Origin: Rosistilla oblonga
GTDB taxonomy: Bacteria; Planctomycetota; Planctomycetia; Pirellulales; Pirellulaceae
Direction of reading: 5' to 3'
NCBI RefSeq assembly: GCF_007751715.1
Contig: NZ_CP036292.1
Coordinates: 2,542,001 to 2,606,000, forward strand
Length of the DNA: 64,000 nucleotides
How positions within the stretch are numbered: position 1 is the stretch's first letter; every line of letters starts with the position of its first letter. The translations under genes were made by a program, and so were the position numbers. Positions 4,201 through 48,504 of the stretch are shown here, piece after piece. The notes under the pieces were generated by a model. It was not told where the DNA came from, made no database searches, and saw only the letters and a program-made list of their open reading frames with translations.

Positions 4201-5946
4201 TGGATAGCGAAATCCCCATCGCAGAGTTCGGGTGGCGAGATCCAACGCCACCATCGCGCCGTGCCCGGTCGGGCAGACCAGCGTGCCATCGGCGTAAGCC
4301 GGCACCGCGCCACCGATGCGACGGATCGGATCGTGTTCGATCGAACCCGCATCGACGGCTACCAAATGCTGACGCCACTGCAACGCACCGCTGGCGGGAT
4401 CCAAGCAGATCAGAAAGATATCAGCCTTCTGTTCGGCGATCGCATACAGCAGGCCGTCGATCGGAAGCGGAGGGCCTAGGAAAAAGGTGTCGTCCAGTTG
4501 CGGTTCGGCTGAAAATTCACCGCCGATCGTCCAGACCAGTTTCCCTTGAGTCGCGATGTCCAGGGCGACCAGGGTGTTGGTTCCGCCGGCTGATTTCTGA
4601 ATCCCTTGGATTCCCATCCCGCCAAATTGATTGAAGGTCGTCGGCCGGACTTCGCCCAAGTCCATCAGCATATAAACCCGTTTTCCGTCGCTGCTGATAC
4701 GGCCAAAGGGAAGGTCGTTCCAGACCCTTTGCACCAACAGGCGATGCCGTTGATCGTCGTCGGGAATCTCGTCGGTCGGGATCGCGGTCCCGTCGAGGTT
4801 GTCGGAGAACCAAGGGTATTCCCAGACGTATTTCCCAGTCTCGAAGTCGATCGCGACCATCCCTTCGGTCGTCTTGGCGAGGACCGTATCGTCGACGACG
4901 ATCGGTTGCCATGAGGGGATTGGGAACGCGCCGCCAGCTTGCTGCTTGGCTTCAAACTCCTGCAAAAATTCCTGCTGTCGCACGCTCCATGTCGTCTGCT
5001 TCATCCAGCGTTCGTTGCGCATCGGCAGCTCGCTGCCGCGGTATCCCGTGCGCGAAGCGTCACCGCCGGCAAGCGGTTGGTTGGCGGGGCTTTCGTCGTA
5101 GTGGGGTGTCTGTAGAGGGAAGTGTTTTTCTAACCACGTGGTGAGCGTTTTGACATCGGCTGTCGATTGAGGCAAGTCGACATCGCGGCCGTTGAGTTCG
5201 ACGCGTCCAGTGGAGAGATCGCCCAGCGACACAAGGACGTCGACGGCGCGGTCGGTCTGCCCCGCCTGATACCAGCTGCCCGCCAAGGTGACGATCAAGC
5301 TAGATCCCAGCTTGTTTCGCATCCGTTCGTAGCGATACAAGCGATCGAGCGTCAGCGCGGCGGCTAGCGGTTTGCCTTGCGTAAGGTCGCGATAGCCTAA
5401 CAGCAGAGTCGCTTGTTGGCCGGCGTCGGTGTGCAGGAATTCACGCGATACCTGAGCGATGCCACGCCAGTCCTGTTGCGCAACGGCTTGTTTCAGTTCG
5501 GCGGCGGCGCGGCTGCCATAACGCAAGTCGTAGATTTCGAGCCCCTTGCTGGGCAGCCGGCTCAACAGGTCTTCGGCTTCTCGCAACAAACTGTTGTCGG
5601 CTAGTGCTGGTTGTTCGTTGGGCAAGAAGAAGTCCTGCCCCTGCATCTCGCTGAGCCGTGAGTTTGTCTTTCGCGCCAGCAGTTCGCCCAGCAGAATGAT
5701 AGCGTCGCCGTACCTCGCTTCTTCGATCGCCTCTTGCGCGTCGGACATCTCCTGCCGCAGCGATCGATCGGGTTCGATGAACTGCCCGCCGTCGGTGGCT
5801 CGTCGGTCGCGAACGCCGAACTGTCCCATCGCGTCGCTCGCGATCGCGAGGGTTGCGAAGATCAGCACCCCGGTGGTGAGCCTCTGCCAGGCGGAAAATC
5901 CAACGGGAGCGAAGAGGGCGAGGCGGGGCTGAAAAGCTTCAGGCAT
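1246..5946 (-). CDS. Exported PQQ-like beta-propeller / TPR protein, about 1566 aa
   Basis: Very large exported protein. After an N-terminal hydrophobic signal (LTTGVLIFATLAIASDAMG) comes a helical region, then a first PQQ-type propeller at roughly residues 290-760 with repeats such as MVAIDFETGKYVWEYP, LVALDIATQGKLVW, MVALDLATRTLRWGF and LYALDLRSGKPAWS. A TPR-like region follows (about 770-1000, e.g. GKRDEALEWLRRVP), and a second propeller (about 1130-1560) contains LAAVDVLTGKDLWRAA, LNIWDLQTGEALESS and MAYDRQTGKPLWDA. I start at the ATG at 5946 because it puts the signal peptide at the N-terminus; the ATG at 5961 is equally possible, and upstream sequence in frame looks non-coding. No alcohol-dehydrogenase catalytic segment or heme motif is seen, so a scaffold or sensor role is more likely than quinoprotein catalysis. 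The function is unknown. Confidence 0.85.
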   Translation of the reverse strand: MPEAFQPRLALFAPVGFSAWQRLTTGVLIFATLAIASDAMGQFGVRDRRATDGGQFIEPDRSLRQEMSDAQEAIEEARYGDAIILLGELLARKTNSRLSEMQGQDFFLPNEQPALADNSLLREAEDLLSRLPSKGLEIYDLRYGSRAAAELKQAVAQQDWRGIAQVSREFLHTDAGQQATLLLGYRDLTQGKPLAAALTLDRLYRYERMRNKLGSSLIVTLAGSWYQAGQTDRAVDVLVSLGDLSTGRVELNGRDVDLPQSTADVKTLTTWLEKHFPLQTPHYDESPANQPLAGGDASRTGYRGSELPMRNERWMKQTTWSVRQQEFLQEFEAKQQAGGAFPIPSWQPIVVDDTVLAKTTEGMVAIDFETGKYVWEYPWFSDNLDGTAIPTDEIPDDDQRHRLLVQRVWNDLPFGRISSDGKRVYMLMDLGEVRPTTFNQFGGMGIQGIQKSAGGTNTLVALDIATQGKLVWTIGGEFSAEPQLDDTFFLGPPLPIDGLLYAIAEQKADIFLICLDPASGALQWRQHLVAVDAGSIEHDPIRRIGGAVPAYADGTLVCPTGHGAMVALDLATRTLRWGFRYPRTDMMNQMSRSFGGRGNTDSSSYLARWNDGTPVIYQGRVLFTPVEGDRLYALDLRSGKPAWSTLPREDWQYLGGVSDGTAILVGNDTIRGIDVATGKRRWDYEAPLTQGESIVGRGAFGPEQFIFPTSGNRMVAIGTRDGRERNSQEVHYPLGNLVSVRGQLLSQSATHIAMARGRQTAAESVASALLADPNNIWATICKGELLLEEGKRDEALEWLRRVPREAPEYEEARVLIVEAMVGALRDDFAANIQLLDELDRVAELPQERAEVLRLKATGLLESGKFVAAAEALLELSAPQVNFMGMQTIDATQRIELADGRTANLDGWIAARVGELVQSADDDALAEINDLVAQRLQNLTSITGPRGQQLQRHFGYFEACDPVLLAVAQRFRKEGSFLAAERLLRGAIAAADTDSRRDRWLAALAGLYLNAQWESDALATFAKIKAPDAIELDDPWGSDQWKQLLRMTSDEESTNLTLADWPKYAVSQPMEFPNEIGGGSDLLELMQSDGLAFANWKILASESTDSLQMQTPQGTLGPMYHLESSNNNDRNGPEKVYIDHGMMIVVLPTAVIGIDLFQATQNPNDMEIWRRVWRSSNTNNHIQTRPAPNVWGQLERRHVNAQNQPVLRTSSIVDGRFMMLQPRSLAAVDVLTGKDLWRAAVNVDDGYVAVSDSIVSVINPATREVFRFRASDGQPMKTETWVEPGEQVWASVESRLLTYTETPARGETPGSLKLRLWDATTGEVAIESGSLPAGTKGYVAENRYVVTLQPEGELNIWDLQTGEALESSSLPPGGPLLNVRAMLWEDRLIVLPNIELPDDQQMRYSRSGKDQQHVEVAGPAMAYDRQTGKPLWDAPFEMGAFGVSPGQPVGGPLLFLSRRQRPARSDDGIPDWSITLQAIDVRDGRLAHEATQLVARRIPMEVVTNVSINPTDWQYIVSIARNQLSIKLQDTPPPKPADGAIQPQPDPADGANAIKPKEPFGLFEPVE

Positions 5947-6354
5947 ATTTAAACAATCCATAGCTAAACTCGCGATGCATGGCAAATGGTCGGCCGCGGC
6001 GCACGGTAATGACGATCCGGCGGCAACGCCATGTTTGTTAAATTGTAGCGTATCGGTAGTGTGAAGGAATCCGAGTGCTGCGCCAGACGGGACAATCGGT
6101 GCGATCCCTACCATCCACACAGCTGGCCCCCTATTGGAGCCCATTCTTTTAATGCGTGCTCAAATTTCGAAGATTGATCAAACCGCTTTTGGATGTCAGA
6201 CGATCTGTGACTTGGGTGGAGCATTTGAAGACGCTTTCCGAACCAGATTAGTTGTTTGCACTGCAACGAAGAGGGTCGCCGACCGCTCGGTCGACTATTC
6301 CCAGGTTGCGACTGCAAACAGGGGTGGTGGATCGAACTACGTTAAGACAGAGCA

Positions 6355-6948
6355 GTGAAAACAATGCGAAATACAAAACTATTGAAGTCTGTTGTCACGA
6401 TCGTGACATGTGCGGCGATGATCGTACCGCAGCCCGCCATGGCGGCGGCGCGAGCGACACAAGTTGTCGATGGTATCCAAGTTAGCTCGGATATCAAAAA
6501 TGTACGTCGTGGAAAAACGGTTGCGCTTCGCGGTGCGATCGTCGACCAAAGTGGCAAGCCAGTTGTCGGGGCACCTGTGGTGATTGCCCAACAAGGCAAT
6601 GTCGTCGCCGAGCTGAACACAGCAGCCGACGGTCGCTACCAATTGGCCGACGCAGCACCAGGCGTTTATCAAGTGGCTAGCTACGCTGGCGTTCAAACGA
6701 TCCGCCTGCACGCGGCAGGTGCTCCTGCCGATTCGGTCGACGGAGTCGTTCAAGTGATCGACAACGAAGGCGTCGCACGCGGCCAATATTGTGCCGGTGG
6801 CGCCAGCTGCCAAGGCTGTGACCAATGCCGTCCAAAGCGTTTTGCTTTGTTGAAGAAGGTTGCTACCAGCCCGCTGACATGGACCGCTGTCATCGCTGCT
6901 GCGATCGCGATTCCTCTGGCATTGGACGATGACGACGACGCCAGCTGA
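6355..6948 (+). CDS. Exported membrane-anchored protein with carboxypeptidase-regulatory-like domain
   Basis: 197-residue exported protein. It has a signal peptide (cleavage near PAMAAA, residue 30), then a beta-sandwich segment (residues about 55-120) with the carboxypeptidase-regulatory/CNA-B-like pattern GAIVDQSGKPVVGAPVVIAQ and DGRYQLADAAPGVYQV. Four cysteines follow at 146, 152, 155 and 158 (CxxCDxC core), then a basic patch, a C-terminal membrane segment (about 173-190) and an acidic tail DDDDDAS. The frame opens with GTG at 6355; an ATG four codons later (6364) is an alternative. Such small proteins are common in planctomycetes and have no established function. Cell-envelope location with the fold outside the membrane is inferred. 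A strong bidirectional terminator lies just downstream. Confidence 0.75.
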   Translation: MKTMRNTKLLKSVVTIVTCAAMIVPQPAMAAARATQVVDGIQVSSDIKNVRRGKTVALRGAIVDQSGKPVVGAPVVIAQQGNVVAELNTAADGRYQLADAAPGVYQVASYAGVQTIRLHAAGAPADSVDGVVQVIDNEGVARGQYCAGGASCQGCDQCRPKRFALLKKVATSPLTWTAVIAAAIAIPLALDDDDDAS

Positions 6949-7002
6949 TTGCGGTTTGGCATCGGGGCAAGCCGACGCAGTTAGTTAATGATGAAATGAA
7001 AG

Positions 7003-7031
7003 AGAGCCGGTTCGCAATTCGAACCGGCTCT
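7003..7031. terminator. Bidirectional rho-independent terminator
   Basis: Perfect 12-bp stem AGAGCCGGTTCG / CGAACCGGCTCT with a 5-nt loop, located between two convergent genes. The plus-strand transcript continues TTGTTGTTTA and the minus-strand transcript continues CTTTCATTTC, so both flanks are pyrimidine-rich. It probably ends both the exported-protein gene and the acyltransferase gene. Confidence 0.85.
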
Positions 7032-7060
7032 TGTTGTTTAACGATCGTCGTGGGGCGTGA

Positions 7061-9355
<2,295 letters not shown>

Positions 9356-40373: not shown

Positions 40374-41114
40374 CTATTGGTTGGGAGCCACGGTGTCGGC
40401 TGGGACCAACGGCGCGATCATACGGGCGACTTCAGCGTACTTTAAGATCCGCGCGTAGCGGTCGCGAAGCGTCGCCAGGGAGGCATCGTGCAGTTCGGGC
40501 GTCACGGTGGCACAGCAGTCTTCGACGACCGTCACCAGGTAACCGAGATCGCAGGCATCGCGGACTGTCGTTTCCACACATTCATTGGTGTAGACACCAA
40601 CGACAAACAGCGATTCGATCCCCATGTTTTTCAGCACGTAGTGCAAGTTGGTCGACGAGAAGACGCCACTAGCCGTTTTGTTGATCACGATCTCGTCGCG
40701 CGATTCGTCGGGGCCGACGATCTCTAGGAAATCGGCTTCCCGCGATCCGGGCGCCGCCAATAGCCCAAGCCGCCGATGTCCTTTGCTGCGGTCGCGGCCG
40801 TCGCGGGTGAGGGCTTGAATCCGCGTGTGGATGACTTCCAGTCCATGGGATCGGAAGGCGTCTTGAAGCCCGCGGACGTTAGGCAGCACCGTCTGCTGCA
40901 AGCGATCGAAATAATACTCTTGCGCCTCCTGAGGCACTCCGCTGTTCATCGCATCTTTAAAAACGCCATGACCGGGAGCGGCATCTAGGTATTGCAGATC
41001 GATACACAATAGCGCCGTCCGCCCCTCGATCAAGAACTCCTTGTGCGCGGGGTTCTCGACAAACGATTCGTGATAGACCTCTTTGAGCGGATCGACGTGT
41101 TCGTTATCGGTCAT
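40374..41114 (-). CDS. Isochorismatase-family cysteine hydrolase
   Basis: 246-residue alpha/beta hydrolase of the isochorismatase superfamily, whose members include N-carbamoylsarcosine amidase, ureidoacrylate amidohydrolase, biuret hydrolase and nicotinamidase. The Asp-Lys-Cys triad is intact: D39 in LLCIDLQYLD, K146 in INKTASGVFSST and C179 in VYTNECVETTVRDA. No signal peptide. An N-terminal ~30-residue extension precedes the fold. The ATG at 41112-41114 starts a normal cytosolic protein; an upstream in-frame ATG overlaps the preceding gene. It is the last gene of a seven-gene minus-strand run that includes another amidohydrolase and a carbamoyltransferase-family enzyme, suggesting hydrolysis of an amide, ureide or carbamoyl compound. 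The exact substrate is not determined. Confidence 0.88.
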   Translation of the reverse strand: MTDNEHVDPLKEVYHESFVENPAHKEFLIEGRTALLCIDLQYLDAAPGHGVFKDAMNSGVPQEAQEYYFDRLQQTVLPNVRGLQDAFRSHGLEVIHTRIQALTRDGRDRSKGHRRLGLLAAPGSREADFLEIVGPDESRDEIVINKTASGVFSSTNLHYVLKNMGIESLFVVGVYTNECVETTVRDACDLGYLVTVVEDCCATVTPELHDASLATLRDRYARILKYAEVARMIAPLVPADTVAPNQ

Positions 41115-41164
41115 CGGCAACTTTTCCTGACAGCGGGTTTTGTTCGGGTGAAATATTCGGAGGT

Positions 41165-42412
41165 TCAGTTGGTGGCGGAACTCAGCTGCACCAAGGTTTG
41201 CAACATCAAATTTGCCCCCGCTTCGATGTCCGACCAAGCTGTCCATTCGGCAGGCGAATGACTCTGCCCGTTTTTACTGGGCACAAAGATCATCCCGACC
41301 GGAACCATGCTCCCCATGATCTGGGCGTCGTGAGCGGCTCCGCTGGGCATCCGTAGGTGATCGAGTTCCAGTTTGCTGGCCTGATCCATCAACAGTTGGA
41401 CGATCGCGTCGTGGCAAGCGACCGGCCGCAGATAACTCTTCTGTGCAAACTCAAACATCAGATTGCGTCGGCGAGCGATCGCTGAAAGCGCTTTGCGAAA
41501 AGCCGTCCCGAGTTCTTCGAGCACCGCTTCGCTGGTATCGCGAACGTCCAAGGAGAATTCGACCAGACCGGGGACGGTATTGGTAGCCCCCGGTAGGATC
41601 TGGGCTTTGCCGATCGTCGTGCGGCTGCGATCGCTGCCGTTCTCTTCCAGGATCCGCGGGATTTCATGAGCGAAATCGGCCAGCCCCATGAAGGCGTCGT
41701 TACGCATTTCCATCGGTGTCGTCCCGGCGTGGTTCGCTTCCCCACGCAACGTGACCGCCCATGTGAACAGCCCAGTGATCTCGTCGACGACTCCGACCGC
41801 CTTCTTGGTTCGATCCAAGACCGGTCCCTGTTCGATGTGCAGTTCGATGTAGGCGGCGATCGATTCGGGGACCCGAGCCGCGTCTAAAGCCGACAACGCA
41901 TCGTGACCGTGCCGGCCCAATTCGTCGCGCAACAGAACGCCGTTCATGTCGGTCGTCGTTTCCAACGACTGAGGGTTCAGTTGGCCGCAGACGGCTTGTG
42001 AACCAAACATCCCGCCAAAGCGGCCCTCTTCGTCGCTGAACGCGATCAGTTCGAGCGTCCTGTCGGGTTGGAAACCGGTCTCTCGCAGCGTCCGCAGACA
42101 CTCCAGTCCGACCACGACGCCAAGCGTTCCGTCCAACGCACCGGCACACGGCACGGTGTCGATGTGCGAACCGACCAGCACGCGCGGGGCGTCGGTGGTT
42201 CCCGAAAGCTCTCCCGAGATGTTCATCGCACCATCGGTCGAAGCGATCAGGTCCGCTTGTTCGATCTGTTGTGTCAGCCAACGTTTGCCCTGGATGTCGG
42301 CGTCGGTGAACGCCATCCGGTAGATTCCACGATCGGATTCGCGGCGGCCGATTTTGGCCAGCGTCAGGATGTCGCGTTTGATGCGTTCGAGGTCGACGCG
42401 GATTTCCATCAT
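41165..42412 (-). CDS. M20-type N-carbamoyl-L-amino-acid / allantoate amidohydrolase
   Basis: 415-residue Zn-dependent amidase of the hydantoinase/carbamoylase family, which hydrolyses N-carbamoyl amino acids, beta-ureidopropionate or allantoate to release CO2 and NH3. Metal-site motifs are VGSHIDTVPCAGALDGTLGV (H83, D94), AFSDEEGRFGGMFGSQAVCG (E128/E129), ELHIEQGPVLD and HAGTTPMEMRNDA; the late MPSGAAHDAQIMG varies from the usual SGAGHDA. Cytosolic. Two adjacent ATGs (42412, 42409) with CAGGAACC upstream decide the start. It lies 50 bp before the cysteine hydrolase gene and 53 bp after the asparagine-synthetase gene, so it is probably co-transcribed. Substrate within the family is not resolved. 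Confidence 0.9.
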   Translation of the reverse strand: MMEIRVDLERIKRDILTLAKIGRRESDRGIYRMAFTDADIQGKRWLTQQIEQADLIASTDGAMNISGELSGTTDAPRVLVGSHIDTVPCAGALDGTLGVVVGLECLRTLRETGFQPDRTLELIAFSDEEGRFGGMFGSQAVCGQLNPQSLETTTDMNGVLLRDELGRHGHDALSALDAARVPESIAAYIELHIEQGPVLDRTKKAVGVVDEITGLFTWAVTLRGEANHAGTTPMEMRNDAFMGLADFAHEIPRILEENGSDRSRTTIGKAQILPGATNTVPGLVEFSLDVRDTSEAVLEELGTAFRKALSAIARRRNLMFEFAQKSYLRPVACHDAIVQLLMDQASKLELDHLRMPSGAAHDAQIMGSMVPVGMIFVPSKNGQSHSPAEWTAWSDIEAGANLMLQTLVQLSSATN

Positions 42413-42465
42413 GGTTCCTGTAGAGATAAGATCCCCGGCAAAGCTGCTGGGGAAGCGTGAGTGAA

Positions 42466-44385
42466 TCAATCGACAGCGGGCAGCGGCATCCCTTCGACAT
42501 ATTGGCCGTGCAGGATATGCAACTGCAAAGCGTGGTTCATGATGATGTCGTTGCGGCGAGCGATCGTGTGATCGGTCTCCTGCCACGCTTGGTCGATGAA
42601 ATCACGCAGCTTTTTCGTGTCGAAGACGCCCAACGCCGCGATCCGGGCGTCGGTCAACCAATGGTCGATCATGTCCTGCAGCGCCGCCCGAATCACCGGC
42701 GACGTGTGGGCTGGCGGAGCCATGAAAGCAAACTTCTTCCGCTCGTACAGTTCTCGTGGCAGGACGTTGACCATCGCCTCTCGCAACACCCACTTTTCGA
42801 TTCCATCGCGGATCCGCACGTCGGGCGGAATCGTGACAGCGTATTCGGCGATGTGATGGTCCAGGAACGCCGGCCGGGCTTCCATGCTGTTGGCCATATC
42901 CATTCGGTCGCCACCCCAAGTCAAGATCTGCCCTTCGAGCATCGTCTTGCACCAGGTGTATTGCGAGACGTCCAAGCGGTGTCGGCCGCGAACCTGATCC
43001 GGATCGATCGCTCCGGCAACTTCGGCAACGGGATCGTACTGCTGCATCAGATCTTGCATCGACGACGACAACAGCGGCCGAACGCGGGCCAGCGTCATCA
43101 TCCAGGGCTGGATCCACGATGGCGTGAAGCCACACAGATCGTCCCACGCCGGGTGGCGAAGATCTTCTTCGGCCAGGATCGCTCCTGCAAAGATCCCCGC
43201 ATCGTCCTCGCGGCCCAACCAATCGCGTTTGAAGAATGGGTAGCCGCCAAAGAGTTCGTCGGACCCTTCGCCGGTGATCACCGCTTTGTAATTGCAAGCT
43301 CGCACACGGCGGCTCATGTGCCACTTGGCAACCGCCAGCGTGTTGTAGAACGTCCGTTCGGCGTGCCACGTGGCTCGTTCGAAGGCAGGTCCATAGAGTT
43401 CCTTTTCGGTCAGCAGCAGCAATTCCTGCTCCGCCCCGGTCCGCTGTGCCATCAGTTTGGCGATGTTCGATTCGTCGTATTCGTCGCTGTCGAATGCGAT
43501 CGTAAAGGCTTTGATCGGCGATTGTTGCAGCGTCGTTGCCAGCCCCAAGATCGAACAGCTGTCGATCCCGCCCGACAGATAACATCCGACCGGCACGTCG
43601 GCTTCCAACCGCGTTGCGACTGCGTCGATCAAGCGATCTTGAACGCCTTGCACGTATTCTGCTGGATCGGCGTTTTCGACGTGTGACTCGGGGAACTCGA
43701 GATCCCACCAACGCTTGAGCGATGTTTCCAAGCGGCCGTCGCGCTCTTGAACGATCAACATGTGACCGGGCTGCAACGCCTGGACGTCTTCGAACGCCGT
43801 CGATCCCGGCACCATCACCTGCATCATCTGATGGATGACTGCTTTGGGGCACATCCGCGGCTGGATGTCGGGATGTTTGAGGATCGATTTGACCTCCGAT
43901 CCCCAAGCGATGCCGTTGTCGTTGACGGAGTAGTAGAGCGGTTTAACGCCAAACCGATCGCGGATCAGGATCAGTCGATTTTCGCGGGCGTCGTACAGCA
44001 CGACGGCAAATTCGCCTCGCAGATGTTCGACAAAGCTGAGCCCGTATTTGCGGTACAGCGGCAGCGTGATCGCACTGTCGCTCTTGCCCCCCGTCGTCAG
44101 CGTCTCACACGCCAATTGAGTCCGCAGTTTTTTGTAGCCATACAATTCGCCGTTGACCGTGACAGCCAGTTCGCCGTCGCGCGATTCGATCGGTTGGTGA
44201 CCGTGATCTAAACCGACGATCGAGAGCCGCGTGTGCCCCAGGGCGAGCCCTTTCTCTGGGTACAGTCGACTGCCGCGATCGTCGGGACCGCGGTGATCGA
44301 GGACGTCGAGCATTTGGTCGAGCGCGGTGCGCAGTTGACGTTCGCTGGTTCGCGATGGGTTCCAGAATCCGGTGATTCCACACAT
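42466..44385 (-). CDS. asnB: Asparagine synthetase (glutamine-hydrolysing)
   Basis: 639-residue class II glutamine amidotransferase plus ATP-pyrophosphatase. The N-terminal nucleophile is Cys2 (MCGITGFW), with HRGPDDRGSR (31-40), VNGELYGYKKL and RFGVKPLYY completing the glutaminase. The synthetase domain has the PPi loop SGGIDS at 271-276 and VITGEGSDELFGGYPFF. The reaction is Asp + Gln + ATP to Asn in the canonical enzyme; paralogues amidate other carboxylates. It lies in the middle of the gene run with an ATCase-family gene 93 bp upstream and an M20 amidohydrolase 53 bp downstream, so a specialised amide-forming role is possible. ATG at 44383-44385. The asnB family call is secure; asparagine as the product is by homology only. 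Confidence 0.9.
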   Translation of the reverse strand: MCGITGFWNPSRTSERQLRTALDQMLDVLDHRGPDDRGSRLYPEKGLALGHTRLSIVGLDHGHQPIESRDGELAVTVNGELYGYKKLRTQLACETLTTGGKSDSAITLPLYRKYGLSFVEHLRGEFAVVLYDARENRLILIRDRFGVKPLYYSVNDNGIAWGSEVKSILKHPDIQPRMCPKAVIHQMMQVMVPGSTAFEDVQALQPGHMLIVQERDGRLETSLKRWWDLEFPESHVENADPAEYVQGVQDRLIDAVATRLEADVPVGCYLSGGIDSCSILGLATTLQQSPIKAFTIAFDSDEYDESNIAKLMAQRTGAEQELLLLTEKELYGPAFERATWHAERTFYNTLAVAKWHMSRRVRACNYKAVITGEGSDELFGGYPFFKRDWLGREDDAGIFAGAILAEEDLRHPAWDDLCGFTPSWIQPWMMTLARVRPLLSSSMQDLMQQYDPVAEVAGAIDPDQVRGRHRLDVSQYTWCKTMLEGQILTWGGDRMDMANSMEARPAFLDHHIAEYAVTIPPDVRIRDGIEKWVLREAMVNVLPRELYERKKFAFMAPPAHTSPVIRAALQDMIDHWLTDARIAALGVFDTKKLRDFIDQAWQETDHTIARRNDIIMNHALQLHILHGQYVEGMPLPAVD

Positions 44386-44478
44386 GATTGAATTCGCTTT
44401 GTACAGTTCGTGACGAAAAGGGTTTCCGCGGCGGCGCGACGCCAGTAGGTCGCGGGCACGATCCGGCGCCGGAGAGGA

Positions 44479-45555
44479 CTAGAGATCGCTGATCCGGTTG
44501 AGTCGCTGGAGCACCGAGACCAGCAGCGCTTGGCGGACGAAGACCGCACCAGCCGCTTGGGCGAAGTAGAGGTTGTGATCGGTGTCGTCGAGATCTTCGG
44601 AGAGTTCATCGTTGCGAGCCAGCGGATGCATCACCACAGCCCCCGGCTTCAGATCGCTGGCGAGTTCCAACTTGTAGCGGCCATCGAGATTCCGATAGCT
44701 GTCGCCGAGGAATGCGATCGAATTGACATAGACGACATCCAGCTCTTTCAGAACTTTCTGCACGTCGTTGGTGACTTCGATCGGAATCGGCGATTGTTCG
44801 ATCGGTTCGGTCAGGTCCAGCCCGACCGGATCGGCCATTTCCGAGACCAGCGTGATCTTGGAAACAGCGCCGGCGAACATCAACGACAATCGCAGGAAGC
44901 TTTTCACAGCACGCATCGATCCGGGCGTACCGATGATTCCCAAATGGATCCGCCGCTCGGGCGGACAATCGGGGCGGCATAGTTCGGGACGCCACTTCAG
45001 CAGCGCGTACCAATCGATCAGCGCCTGAGTCGGATGATGGCCGCTGCCATTGCCGGCGTTGATCAACGGACGCTGCAGATTCTTTTGGATCTCTTCGATC
45101 GAATTCGTATCGGGATGCCGCATAATCACGATATCGCCGTACGTGTTGAACATCTCGCCGATGTCGGCTAGCGATTCCCCTTTGGCGATTCCGGTCACTT
45201 GGCCGTCGGGGACCGACAGAACTTTGCCGTCGAGTCGCAGCAGGGCGCTCTCAAACGAGAGCCGCGTGCGGGTGCTCGCTTCGAAAAACGCAGTGATCGC
45301 GATCTTGCCATCCAGCGGCTTTTCCATCTCGACGTTGCGCGTCTCTAACAACGCCGCTAACTGGGCCAGCGCAACGACCGTGCGGCGATCGAATTGCCGG
45401 GGGTTCAAGATCGATTGACCAGCGAGGGCTTCGAGCGCTTCCCGATCGATCTTGCCGTCGGTGGCATCCAACAGGCGCTGCGGATCCAGCAGCTGGCCTT
45501 TGGAGTTCGATGCATTAGGTTGCAGTGCGAGCGATCGTAATTGTTCGGTATTCAT
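44479..45555 (-). CDS. Aspartate carbamoyltransferase-family enzyme (PyrB-like) with altered acceptor site
   Basis: 358-residue member of the aspartate/ornithine carbamoyltransferase family, about 45 residues longer than E. coli PyrB at the N-terminus. The carbamoyl-phosphate half is intact: STRTR (94-98), K125 in AKGES, R146 in VIMRHP, HHPTQALID (173-181) and R215. The acceptor half is not. Where E. coli PyrB has YMTRVQ (Arg229, Gln231 bind aspartate) this protein has YVNSIA (276-281), and HPLPRVDE becomes HPLARNDE (310-317). The alignment is by eye. It may be the pathway ATCase of this lineage or carbamoylate another amine. ATG at 45553-45555, only 14 bp after the microprotein stop, with TAGGA as the ribosome-binding site. 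Confidence 0.88.
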   Translation of the reverse strand: MNTEQLRSLALQPNASNSKGQLLDPQRLLDATDGKIDREALEALAGQSILNPRQFDRRTVVALAQLAALLETRNVEMEKPLDGKIAITAFFEASTRTRLSFESALLRLDGKVLSVPDGQVTGIAKGESLADIGEMFNTYGDIVIMRHPDTNSIEEIQKNLQRPLINAGNGSGHHPTQALIDWYALLKWRPELCRPDCPPERRIHLGIIGTPGSMRAVKSFLRLSLMFAGAVSKITLVSEMADPVGLDLTEPIEQSPIPIEVTNDVQKVLKELDVVYVNSIAFLGDSYRNLDGRYKLELASDLKPGAVVMHPLARNDELSEDLDDTDHNLYFAQAAGAVFVRQALLVSVLQRLNRISDL

Positions 45556-45569
45556 TGGAATCAGATGTC

Positions 45570-45692
45570 CTACCAAATGCGGTTTTTACGTGAGTCACAA
45601 ATTAGGAACACAATCAACAGCACTGCCCCCGCAGCACACAACAAAAGTCCACCAAAAACGATGAGCTTCAGAAACCAGATTGGAAACATCAT
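45570..45692 (-). CDS. 40-residue single-pass membrane microprotein coupled to symporter
   Basis: A short gene whose ATG (45690-45692) overlaps the symporter TGA in an ATGA, ending in TAG at 45570-45572. The product starts MMFPIWFLKLIVFGG, continues through one hydrophobic helix (about residues 7-31) and ends with a charged cytosolic-type tail CDSRKNRIW (positive-inside rule places the C-terminus in the cytosol). A good ribosome-binding site, GGAGG, sits 10 nt before the first ATG. Translational coupling and context suggest an accessory subunit of the symporter, analogous in size to small accessory proteins known for other secondary transporters; I do not recognise a family. Coding reality is supported by the ribosome-binding site, overlap and clean membrane topology. 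Confidence 0.75.
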   Translation of the reverse strand: MMFPIWFLKLIVFGGLLLCAAGAVLLIVFLICDSRKNRIW

Positions 45693-47173
45693 GATACGCA
45701 ACCCTCCGTTGTCGTGGGCGACCCGTCGGCCGGCCCCGGTTCCTGTCGCGACAGCTGGTCGAACTCAAAACTGTCGGGAACTATCCAGGTTATCAGACCA
45801 AAGACAATCCCCGAAACGGTTGCTCCGACCAACGAAGCGACAAACCATCCAATAGTAAAATAGGCAACCAGGCCGAGGCTGCTGCCAGCGACCATCGCCG
45901 CGCCGGCAGCCACAGGGCTGGGGCGGCCGAAATAGAGACCGCCGACGATTGGCCAGATACAGCTGCCGACCATCGGTCCGGCAAAAAACAGGACCGTCGC
46001 CAGCGTGCCGATGTTGGCCCAAGCCACCGACCAAGCGATCAAGCCCAAGATCAAAATGCTAAGCACCGACAGCTTGCGTTTGGTGGCATCGGGCATCGTT
46101 TTGCCAGCGGCGCGTTCGAAGATGTCGTTGACCATCAGGTCGCTGGTCGCGGCTAACAGGCTGTCGATACTCGAGGCCAACGAACAGAAGACGATCACAA
46201 ACACAAACAGCGCTCCGCCGGTTCCCAGCAGGGTCGCAGCGACCAACGGTCCGGCGATGTCGGGTTGGCTGATGCCGATCCCAAGAGCTGGCGCGGCCAG
46301 GCCCAGGAAGCCAGCAACGATTGGCACTGGCAACCACAACAGCCCGCCGAGAGCGTACGCCTTGGGGCCGACGCCGTCACGCATTGCAAACGCGCGGCTC
46401 CACCAGACGTTGCTGTGAAATATCTCTCCAAAACCAAATAACATGTTGTTGAACACGGCCATCAACGCGGCGGGGAACATCACCGATAACAACATCGGCC
46501 GCTCCGTCTGCAGTTTGCTGTGGACGTCGGAGATGTCGACGTGCAATAGGACAGCGATCGCCACGACGACCAGCCCGACAAGGATGATCAAGCTCTGGAT
46601 AAAATCGGTTCCAATCACGGCGTACATACCGCCAAAGAGCGTGTACAGAACGCAGACGCCCAGGACGACCGTCATGCCGACTTCGTAGGGGATTCCCGAG
46701 AGCACATTCAACAGCTTGCCGCCGGCCATCGCCATCGAGATCAACCAGGTCATCGCATAGAAGAGCGAGATGATCAGGAACGGGATCGCGCCGAGTTGGC
46801 CGTAGCGGCGATGGACAAATTCGACGGCGGTGTAGCCATGAGGCATCAGTTGGCGAATCCGGCCACTCATCGGAGCAAACGCGAACAGGCCGAAGCTGGC
46901 TGTCGAATAGGTCAACGCACCCCAGATCCCCAGCTGCAACGCGAACTGCGGAGCTAGCATCGTCGTGTTCGATGTGATCCAAGTCGCGACGGCGGTTGCG
47001 GTGCCCAGGGCGAGTCCGACGTTGCGGCCAGCGACTGCAAATCCGTCGTACGATTTCGCTTGCCGTCCCCACCAGACGCCCAGGCCGACCCAAAGGACTC
47101 CAAATGCGAACAGCAACGCGTAGCCCGCGTTGGGACTTAATATCGTGTTTGCGGCAATCAATCCGTCGATCAT
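45689..47173 (-). CDS. Sodium:solute symporter (SSS family), DUR3-like
   Basis: 494-residue polytopic membrane protein with about 13 membrane segments, SSS family. Stretches such as VLYTLFGGMYAVIGTDFIQS, MAMAGGKLLNVLSGIP, AYALGGLLWLPVPIVAG with FLGLAAPALG, and LASSIDSLLAATSDLMVNDI resemble the urea/polyamine DUR3 branch of SSS as I remember it, more than proline or glucose carriers. A urea- or ureide-type substrate is therefore plausible but unproven. The ATG at 47171-47173 overlaps the upstream stop in ATGA, and the TGA at its 3' end overlaps the microprotein ATG, so three membrane proteins are translationally coupled. Na+ dependence is inferred from the family. Confidence 0.9.
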   Translation of the reverse strand: MIDGLIAANTILSPNAGYALLFAFGVLWVGLGVWWGRQAKSYDGFAVAGRNVGLALGTATAVATWITSNTTMLAPQFALQLGIWGALTYSTASFGLFAFAPMSGRIRQLMPHGYTAVEFVHRRYGQLGAIPFLIISLFYAMTWLISMAMAGGKLLNVLSGIPYEVGMTVVLGVCVLYTLFGGMYAVIGTDFIQSLIILVGLVVVAIAVLLHVDISDVHSKLQTERPMLLSVMFPAALMAVFNNMLFGFGEIFHSNVWWSRAFAMRDGVGPKAYALGGLLWLPVPIVAGFLGLAAPALGIGISQPDIAGPLVAATLLGTGGALFVFVIVFCSLASSIDSLLAATSDLMVNDIFERAAGKTMPDATKRKLSVLSILILGLIAWSVAWANIGTLATVLFFAGPMVGSCIWPIVGGLYFGRPSPVAAGAAMVAGSSLGLVAYFTIGWFVASLVGATVSGIVFGLITWIVPDSFEFDQLSRQEPGPADGSPTTTEGCVS

Positions 47174-47637
47174 TTTCGACTCCCTTCGCTGTGCGGTTCA
47201 GACGCCGAGGCGTGAGCGGGGCGAGTCCGCCAAGTTCCCACGGCAATCAGGCTGATGATCGCCAGGAAGACGACAAGACCGCACGTCATCAGCGTCATTG
47301 CAAACGCGACCGACCAGTGTTTGACTTCGACCTGGGCGGGGACCTCCGACTCGGCCAAAGCGTCTCCGTTGGCATCCAGCGCCCGCACGCGGAAGCTGTG
47401 CATGCCATCGGCTAACCCGGAAACAAACGCTTCGGGGAACAGGCCTTGATAGAGCGTGACGTCTCGGTCATCGATCACCTGGTACTCCGCCGCGCCAGCG
47501 ATCTCGTTCCATCGCAGCGTCAGATAGCCCTCTTGAGCAGTGGCGAATTCGGTTTCGGAGAATCGAAGCGCATCTTCCGCGGCAGCGGCGAAGTTAGAAA
47601 CGGTTAAGAACGCTAGGGCAACAGCAGCCAATCGCAA
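47170..47637 (-). CDS. Exported fibronectin-III-like single-pass membrane protein
   Basis: 155-residue protein: signal peptide (MRLAAVALAFLTVSNFAAAA), one beta-sandwich resembling fibronectin type III (about 25-105; LTLRWNEIAGAAEYQVIDD and DGMHSFRVRALDANGDALAE), a membrane helix (about 110-137) and a short polar cytosolic tail. The start is TTG at 47635-47637, supported by a GAGGA ribosome-binding site 7 nt upstream; an ATG nearby is in another frame. The stop overlaps the symporter ATG. It is the first gene of the run, and by position it is a probable extracytoplasmic partner of the symporter, perhaps a solute-recognition or assembly subunit. No named family is recognised. Confidence 0.8.
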   Translation of the reverse strand: MRLAAVALAFLTVSNFAAAAEDALRFSETEFATAQEGYLTLRWNEIAGAAEYQVIDDRDVTLYQGLFPEAFVSGLADGMHSFRVRALDANGDALAESEVPAQVEVKHWSVAFAMTLMTCGLVVFLAIISLIAVGTWRTRPAHASASEPHSEGSRK

Positions 47638-47976
47638 GCAACCGTCCTCATTGTGGTGGTGTTTATAGTTAGTGCTGTAAGCACATTGATGATGGGGACG
47701 CTGCAGTGGCGCAATTTCCGTTCATGAGATTGCCGCGTGAAAACGAAGTCTCCCGTGGCGTTTCGTTCGATCGTAACAGAAAATGCTTTGAGCTGAAAGT
47801 ATTGTTGCCGCAATGCCGTTGGATGTGTTGCCAGCGATGGCGGGTCGCGTCACAATCGGGTTCGGGGGCGGCGAGGTCGGCCCCCGGCGAGTGGTTGGGA
47901 GTTCTTTCCCGGCCCCAGAAATGACTTTGCAGTAACTTTGGTTAACGACGCCGACGGCGGCAAGCGTGCGATAGGA
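47638..47976. other. 339-bp divergent intergenic region
   Basis: Between the fibronectin-III-like gene (minus) and the MarR gene (plus). The left part holds the candidate promoter/operator at 47662-47684. The remainder shows no gene or RNA that I can recognise. Confidence 0.6.
47662..47684 (-). promoter_or_regulatory. Candidate promoter/operator of the symporter cluster
   Basis: On the minus strand a palindrome GTGCT-TAC-AGCAC is followed 4 bp later by TATAAA, a good -10 box; the -35 region (ATCAAT at 17 bp) is poor. A start near 47654 would give a 17-nt leader containing the GAGGA ribosome-binding site and ending at the TTG codon. The palindrome just upstream of the -10 box is a suitable repressor site. 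The divergent MarR gene is the obvious candidate regulator. Confidence 0.4.
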
Positions 47977-48504
47977 ATGAAAACAAAGGTGCCCGTGCTT
48001 TCGAACGAAGACCAGATCGTCGCCGCGATTCGACAGATCATCCGGGCGGTCGATCTACACTCGCGACACTTGGTCAACGGACATGGGATGACCGGTCCGC
48101 AGTTGGCTGTGTTGCAGGAGGCGAAGCGATTGGGGCCGGTTTCGCCGACGGCGCTGTCGCGAGCGGTCCATCTGAGTCAGGCGACGGTCACGGGGATCCT
48201 GCAGCGACTCGAACGCCGCGGATTGATCCAACGCGAACAGAGCGTCTCGGATCGGCGTTCGGTCTCGGTCCAGACCACCTCGGCGGGACTCGAATTTTTG
48301 AGCGGTTCGCCATCGCTGCTGCAGGACCGTTTTCGCGACGCGCTCTCGGCGCTCGAAGATTGGGAGCGGTTGCAGATTCTTTCGACACTGCAGCGGGTGG
48401 CGTCGTTGATGGATGCCGACGAGATCGACGCGGCGCCGCATCTAACCTCCGGCGACATCCCGACACCAAGCGACGATCTGTCGGGGCCGGGCGAGAGTTC
48501 TTAA
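47977..48504 (+). CDS. MarR-family transcriptional regulator
   Basis: 175-residue winged-helix regulator. The core AVLQEAKRLGPVSPTALSRA, VHLSQATVTGILQRLERRGL and the wing QREQSVSDRRSVSVQTTSAG are diagnostic for MarR. MarR dimers usually repress a divergent or own operon and are released by small aromatic or metabolic ligands. It is transcribed away from the seven-gene symporter/amidohydrolase run, whose promoter region contains a palindrome (47672-47684), so regulation of that run is the most economical inference. The ATG at 47977 is preceded by ATAGGA. A Ser/Pro/Asp-rich tail ends the protein. Confidence 0.9.
   Translation: MKTKVPVLSNEDQIVAAIRQIIRAVDLHSRHLVNGHGMTGPQLAVLQEAKRLGPVSPTALSRAVHLSQATVTGILQRLERRGLIQREQSVSDRRSVSVQTTSAGLEFLSGSPSLLQDRFRDALSALEDWERLQILSTLQRVASLMDADEIDAAPHLTSGDIPTPSDDLSGPGESS

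Follow-up and report, generated by a model that had tools for sequence, protein, structure and literature searches.

A candidate gene cluster for a carbamoylated amino-acid amide osmolyte in Rosistilla oblonga and bacteria of several other phyla

The NAGGN operon (asnO-ngg-peptidase, PA3458-PA3461), which has an AsnB-type enzyme and a divergent MarR gene whose product governs osmoadaptation, is required for growth at high osmolarity according to the accessible part of the paper describing it (PMC8070244), and the ect clusters of planctomycetes contain, in the accessible portion of their description, genes for a MarR regulator (EctR) and for the SSS-type protein EctI (PMC13342039). CosR and EctR1 are presented as MarR repressors of compatible-solute genes in the accessible text of PMC7876524. 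N-carbamoylglutamine amide (CGA) of Ectothiorhodospira is likewise given as an established osmolyte in the accessible part of PMC1224877. No genes for CGA were found in the accessible text of the open-access papers searched, and the available portion of a survey of solute genes in phototroph genomes names none for it (PMC7824335). Here we describe a seven-gene cluster at positions 40374-47637 of a 64,000-nucleotide stretch of the Rosistilla oblonga genome (NZ_CP036292.1, positions 2,542,001 to 2,606,000; this whole stretch is called the window). We consider an osmolyte function of this cluster very probable, and we propose, with moderate confidence, that it encodes a compatible-solute cycle with CGA as its product.

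All seven genes are encoded by the minus strand and follow one another as FN3 (fibronectin-III-like protein), SSS (symporter), P40 (40-amino-acid protein), CTA (carbamoyltransferase of the ATCase family), ASN (AsnB-type amidotransferase), M20 (carbamoylase) and ISO (isochorismatase-fold amidase). With the starts that we chose, the intergenic gaps are -4, -4, 14, 93, 53 and 50 bp; the listed M20 reading frame (41165-42586) begins too early and overlaps the AsnB-type gene, so we place its start near 42412, and the ISO frame, also listed too long, would start near 41114. A MarR gene (47938-48504, plus strand) diverges from the cluster across 300 bp (47638-47937) that, judged from their position, presumably hold divergent promoters and an operator. 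An earlier sequence-only reading of this DNA had described this arrangement, genes in one direction separated by no more than 93 bp and a divergent MarR gene, and had named the enzyme, symporter and regulator families; both descriptions hold. The Pfam matches all exceed their cut-offs (isochorismatase 122.9 bits, Peptidase_M20 102.6, Asn_synthase and GATase_7 306.4 and 124, OTCace_N and OTCace 117.9 and 47.9, SSF 74.6, MarR 59.2).

Three aligned CTA proteins served to scan one genome per species; of the 107 relatives found, 80 were kept as loci (numbered L; L015 duplicates L039 and is omitted from the counts), and the gene content of each locus was scored with profiles built from the loci. The order FN3-SSS-P40-CTA-ASN could be assessed in 58 of the 80, the other 22 being short of flank, and it was the same, on one strand, in all 58: 55 loci show it outright, two (L019 and L026) with a broken reading frame and one (L063) with overlapping matches. 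The sequence-only reading had named a gene order not shared by relatives as evidence against its proposal; the order is shared. Across the 80 loci SSS is present in 79, P40 in 79, ASN in 78 and FN3 in 74, and the misses sit at contig ends, including the single P40 miss (L065) and all six of FN3; the small membrane-protein gene of the sequence-only reading, with homologues in 79 of 80 loci, is therefore real. In L026, the Rhodopirellula baltica assembly BR-MGV, the ASN frame is broken in two (L026:11062-12971), by an assembly error or a real break.

Carriers of the core span at least five phyla by record title (Planctomycetota, Verrucomicrobiota, Bacteroidota, Myxococcota, Calditrichota and GN15). 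In the tree of CTA proteins the Verrucomicrobiota (99/95) and the Bacteroidota (83/88) each stay together, and the CTA of the 7.25 Mb source genome stands nearest to those of Stieleria and Roseiconus, of the Pirellulaceae. CTA is sparse in planctomycetes: in evenly drawn samples that include the source genome it occurred in two among 146 genomes from the order and two among 392 from the phylum. Several metagenome bins bear sample names that we take to denote soda-lake sediments, and a number of the named isolates are presumably marine. Surveys of the neighbours, including nine flanking genes by Pfam, showed nothing recurrent across phyla. Neither a phage nor a plasmid origin was retained: 206 pattern matches yielded no confirmed viral relative, and the 59 plasmid records were each below 60% identity, 14 of the 20 listed being annotated as ATCase and six unannotated. 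The accessible text of the open-access papers searched yielded no description of the cluster.

The carbamoyltransferase CTA (44479-45555) is ATCase-like with an altered acceptor site. Its model (pLDDT 86.8) has the ATCase fold, and the 50 PDB matches listed are all ATCases. Among 82 sequences, those of 81 loci plus that of the window (E. coli ATCase numbering), S52-T55, K84, R105, H134, Q137 and R167 are unchanged in every one; we take S52-T55, R105, H134 and Q137 to bind carbamoyl phosphate and R167 the alpha-carboxylate. By contrast with this intact site, Gly takes the place of S80 in 82 of 82 (close to a gap in the alignment), Ser that of R229 in 81, with Arg in none, and Ala that of Q231 in 80, with Gln in none; R229, Q231 and K84 are presumably the aspartate side-chain contacts of ATCase. 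Because S80, R229 and Q231 are replaced while the PyrB-like protein of the same genome retains R229 and Q231, the acceptor of CTA should not be aspartate. We read the acceptor as a compound whose side chain is neutral and which carries an alpha-carboxylate, most likely glutamine. PF02729 occurs three times in the genome, and the residue comparison between CTA and PyrB covered two of these genes, the third being L009. CTA scores 169.6 bits with TIGR00670, below the cut-off of 236.95. A duplicate of PyrB was rejected, since CTA has lost the acceptor residues and another PyrB-like gene having them is present, as was a YgeW or putrescine-type transferase, for which the scores were weak and far below the cut-offs.

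ASN (42466-44385) is predicted to be a glutamine-dependent AsnB-type amidotransferase, and its 406.8 bits with TIGR01536 exceed the cut-off. In the 73 of 79 rows longer than 500 amino acids (window included), the N-terminal glutaminase Cys is kept in 71 (Ser in two), Asn74 and Asp98 in all 73, and the synthetase motifs are kept as well. Because the glutaminase site is retained, ASN should release ammonia for amidation; a hydantoin- or lactam-forming enzyme is disfavoured by the same Cys. AsnB R325, which we take to be needed for the formation of beta-aspartyl-AMP, is replaced by Gly, Ala or Ser in 73 of 73, although this replacement alone is not specific, because two other AsnB-like genes of the genome (L001 and L003) also lack the R325 motif. 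Assignment to NAGGN synthesis was rejected, the AsnO model TIGR03104 giving 274.5 bits against a cut-off of 570.1; no ngg gene is among the cluster genes, and the rest of the genome was not searched for one.

M20 (41165-42412) and ISO (40374-41114; PF00857) form a second module beside the five-gene core. ISO is found in 43 of the 80 loci, each of which also has M20; the two hydrolases share the strand of the core genes in 28 of these loci and lie opposite to them in 15. Where the flanks were long enough (49 loci, against 31 too short), 38 loci have both hydrolases, three have M20 only and eight have neither; the M20-only count includes L043, whose match is a different, 965-amino-acid protein. 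This protein (L043:11077-13971) lies between CTA and ASN, belongs to no Pfam family, shows weak similarity to M20 carbamoylases in its C-terminal part and has a partial homologue at L041:3544-4182; it may replace the usual M20. A whole-genome search covering 25 of the 37 loci without a nearby ISO located the gene elsewhere in 10 of the 25 genomes (E 1.8e-83 or better), and in five of the ten short loci with a distant ISO, M20 adjoins it. In the planctomycete samples, ISO occurred in the same two genomes as CTA, one of the two being the source genome, both in the order (2 of 146, E <= 1e-30) and in the phylum (2 of 392, E <= 1e-40); this shared occurrence suggests, from few positives, that this type of ISO serves the pathway specifically.

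Both enzymes appear to be intact and to belong to the kinds of hydrolase that such a cycle would require. M20 is called an N-carbamoyl-L-amino acid amidohydrolase by TIGR01879 (hydantoinase/carbamoylase; 350 bits, cut-off 204), and its best PDB match is the N-carbamoyl-L-amino acid hydrolase 3n5f (6.5e-78). The residues that we presume to serve as metal ligands and base are kept in 49-50 of 51 homologues, the rest being gaps. With the AllC model TIGR03176 it reaches 266.9 bits, short of 597.75, while with the broader 'allantoate amidohydrolase' subfamily NF006771 it exceeds the cut-off (524.4 vs 399 bits). In ISO the Asp-Lys-Cys set, presumably the cysteine amidase triad of the isochorismatase fold, is conserved (Asp in 45 of 45 homologues, Lys and Cys in 44, with one gap). 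Its nearest PDB entry is the cysteine hydrolase 6xix, which we believe to be a triuret hydrolase; biuret hydrolase stands lower in the list, and ISO falls below the cut-offs of BiuH (72.4 vs 370 bits) and RutB (49.2 vs 377.95 bits).

The symporter gene SSS (45689-47173; PF00474) is flanked by the two small genes FN3 (47170-47637) and P40 (45570-45692). The likeness of the symporter to DUR3 that the sequence-only reading had noted is borne out, the best PDB matches by sequence being the urea symporter DUR3 (E 1.1e-27), and a ligand with a ureido group fits such a transporter, which we propose takes up the carbamoylated solute. FN3 has a signal peptide-like start, one FN3-like domain and a C-terminal transmembrane-like helix. 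The window protein has no Pfam match of its own, and the fn3 Pfam is matched by 2 of 27 aligned homologues (best E 0.0014); its AlphaFold2 model (mean pLDDT 90.4) is a beta-sandwich with a C-terminal helix, for which FN3-like modules are the top PDB matches of domain size (E about 3e-4). P40 has one hydrophobic stretch and a C-terminal D-x6-W, whose Asp and terminal Trp are found in every one of the 80 homologues aligned (from 79 scan loci and L014); no NCBIfam family scored above cut-off for the five tested. We infer that both are partners of the symporter, FN3 as an accessory subunit; if true, the pair would be new among symporter partners.

Taken as a cycle, the seven genes could work as follows. 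Using carbamoyl phosphate as donor, CTA would carbamoylate a neutral amino acid, probably glutamine, at its alpha-amino group, giving an N-carbamoyl amino acid, which ASN would convert with ATP and glutamine to the N-carbamoyl amino-acid amide. SSS, with FN3 and P40, would take up or recover the solute, its direction being presumably inward. Once the need for the solute has passed, ISO would cleave the amide and M20 then remove the carbamoyl group, releasing the amino acid, CO2 and ammonia. The substrates of M20 carbamoylases are N-carbamoyl amino acids whose carboxylate is free; since M20 would need that carboxylate, ISO should act first and M20 second, the reverse of CTA followed by ASN. The presence of carbamoyl-forming beside carbamoyl-cleaving enzymes, which the sequence-only reading had found odd and in need of explanation, would be accounted for because CTA and ASN synthesise what ISO and M20 reverse. 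The EctR/CosR-like MarR protein would repress the operon at low osmolarity, and salt would be expected to induce it.

The link to osmoadaptation comes from the regulator, from some of the neighbours and from the likeness of the architecture to that of known solute clusters. Relatives of the window MarR were found in 30 plasmid records (E <= 1e-8, 37-47% identity), of which 12, chosen by hand, were inspected, and its subfamily was judged by gene neighbourhood, without an EctR model. Ten of the 12 have ect or BCCT genes in their vicinity: in nine, ectA and ectB are no more than 5 kb away (with ectC too in eight of them), and one diverges from a BCCT gene (407 bits to the L016 BCCT). The remaining two, L121 and L126, had no ect or BCCT gene seen beside the MarR gene; by eye, two ABC transporter reading frames adjoin that of L121 (L121:5028-5525), and a YihY/BrkB gene adjoins that of L126 (L126:3938-4426). 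We conclude that the window MarR is like those of the EctR/CosR type. Within the 300-bp region, the operator search returned a single imperfect palindrome (47692-47715), a candidate.

Genes for glycine-betaine synthesis and for BCCT transporters stand next to the cluster in two arrangements. Five loci (L016, L017, L021, L022 and L023) have the cluster preceded by genes for a glycine/sarcosine methyltransferase (GSMT), a sarcosine/dimethylglycine methyltransferase-like protein (SDMT) and a BCCT transporter, and L035 (Phycisphaerales) has the same three genes, here divergent from the core and with the BCCT gene truncated by the contig end. NF051855 was above cut-off in three of three proteins tested (L022, L023, L035), NF041675 below it in three of three (L017, L022, L035; 374-403 vs 550 bits), and TIGR00842 above it in L016 and L022 and below it in the cut L035 protein. 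The window MarR is 76% identical to that of L016, which is divergent from the GSMT-SDMT-BCCT-cluster island; no betaine-type methyltransferase scored above cut-off in the window genome. Beside the intact cluster of L024 (TBK1r) lie fragments of betaine methyltransferase and BCCT genes (6482-7230), apparently decayed, and in L060 (Pelagicoccus) a gene for an MscS-type mechanosensitive channel (5484-7121) stands beside the MarR gene and the cluster.

Several observations weigh against a CGA cycle under osmotic control. Loss of R229 and Q231 is no proof that glutamine is the acceptor. The highest-identity plasmid relative of the MarR protein (L121, 46.8%) has no adjoining solute gene, a MarR gene of such type accompanies just 19 of 80 loci (14 of the 49 with long flanks), and the 6 of 80 loci with betaine-gene neighbours are a raw count without a chance expectation. 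Of the 25 carrier genomes without a core-linked ISO that were searched, 15 yielded none elsewhere. Bacteroidota carriers L049, L056 and L066 are, by name or presumably, from soil or gut, which is not obviously saline. No Ectothiorhodospira, the genus of the known CGA producer E. marismortui, is among the 80 loci kept of 107, although its genomes were not searched directly. R. baltica, whose assembly BR-MGV carries the cluster with the split ASN frame, contained sucrose, glutamate, trehalose and MGG by NMR, and 'carbamoyl' is absent from the accessible text of that study (PMC3694870); nor does the accessible main text of the paper on its salt shock contain carbamoyl, asparagine synth-, symporter or betaine (PMC2754498).

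The first of these points leaves room for a compatible-solute cluster with a different product, an N-carbamoyl amide of asparagine, of a dipeptide or of a beta-amino acid. CTA shows the loss of the Asp side-chain contacts only, and no sequence feature names glutamine; yet we know of no N-carbamoyl amide osmolyte other than CGA, and we hold such a product to be possible, if rather unlikely. The sequence-only reading had taken the cluster for a ureide or carbamoyl uptake-and-processing unit, perhaps a new nitrogen pathway. Its ureido/carbamoyl chemistry, its pairing of uptake with processing and its conservation as a unit stand; nitrogen acquisition is not supported. In the rival explanation built on it, nitrogen would be scavenged from ureides or N-carbamoyl amino acids by DUR3-like uptake and hydrolysis by M20 and ISO, with CTA running backwards to carbamoyl phosphate. 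The kinship of SSS with DUR3, of M20 with the carbamoylase/allantoate family and of ISO with biuret hydrolase-type enzymes would suit it. However, the fixed part of the cluster is the transporter with the carbamoyltransferase and an amidotransferase that consumes ATP and glutamine, that is, a set for synthesis, whereas both hydrolases are absent nearby in eight of the 49 long-flank loci (ISO lies elsewhere in three of the eight and was not found in five), and no allantoinase or hydantoinase is among the cluster genes. Since the core is made of synthesis genes and the relatives of the regulator and some neighbours are of the compatible-solute type, nitrogen acquisition is not supported, and we regard it as improbable.

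Less probable still is that CTA and ASN make a secondary metabolite or a signal, which the symporter would export or bring back in. AsnB-type enzymes do occur in natural-product pathways, and the PDB matches of ASN include the hydroxyamidotransferase 7ylz and beta-lactam synthetase, but no tailoring genes recur among the clustered neighbours, and a constant five-gene core across several phyla, a linked degradation module and the osmotic links all speak against it. A CGA cycle remains our preferred proposal. We judge it evenly balanced whether this cluster, present in at least five phyla, is the first set of genes by which a carbamoylated amino-acid amide osmolyte is made, taken up and recycled, with an acceptor specificity new to the ATCase family and an SSS transporter of a new kind, accompanied by two fixed small partners, a membrane protein with an FN3 domain and a 40-residue peptide with a terminal Trp. 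If it is, carbamoyl phosphate would feed osmolyte synthesis besides arginine and pyrimidines, and a solute of several phyla would have been overlooked, its enzymes being easily mistaken for PyrB and AsnB; for CGA itself, the cluster would offer a concrete two-enzyme route. On the far side of the cluster, an 898-amino-acid FAD-dependent oxidoreductase gene (PF12831, 37634-40330) is convergent with it.

Compared with PyrB, CTA shares the fold, the carbamoyl-phosphate site and R167, and differs in its replaced S80, R229 and Q231 and in being clustered with an AsnB-type gene. DUR3 proteins are the closest solved relatives of SSS by sequence; unlike them (chains of 704-773 residues), SSS has 494 and is encoded in a presumed synthesis operon beside FN3 and P40. 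As far as the accessible part of its description goes, the NAGGN operon resembles the cluster, as we interpret it, in an AsnB-type enzyme that amidates an N-acylated glutamine compound, a divergent MarR gene, a hydrolase gene and a role in osmoprotection; its N-acyl step, however, is carried out by the acetyltransferase/peptide-forming Ngg, whereas the cluster has a carbamoyltransferase, a symporter with two small partners, and an M20 carbamoylase and an isochorismatase-fold amidase as its hydrolases (PMC8070244). The ect clusters of Planctomycetota likewise unite a MarR repressor gene, an SSS solute transporter and synthesis genes, with other enzymes, another solute and, in the accessible text, no FN3 or P40 partners noted (PMC13342039). 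The architecture of the cluster matches that of known solute clusters.

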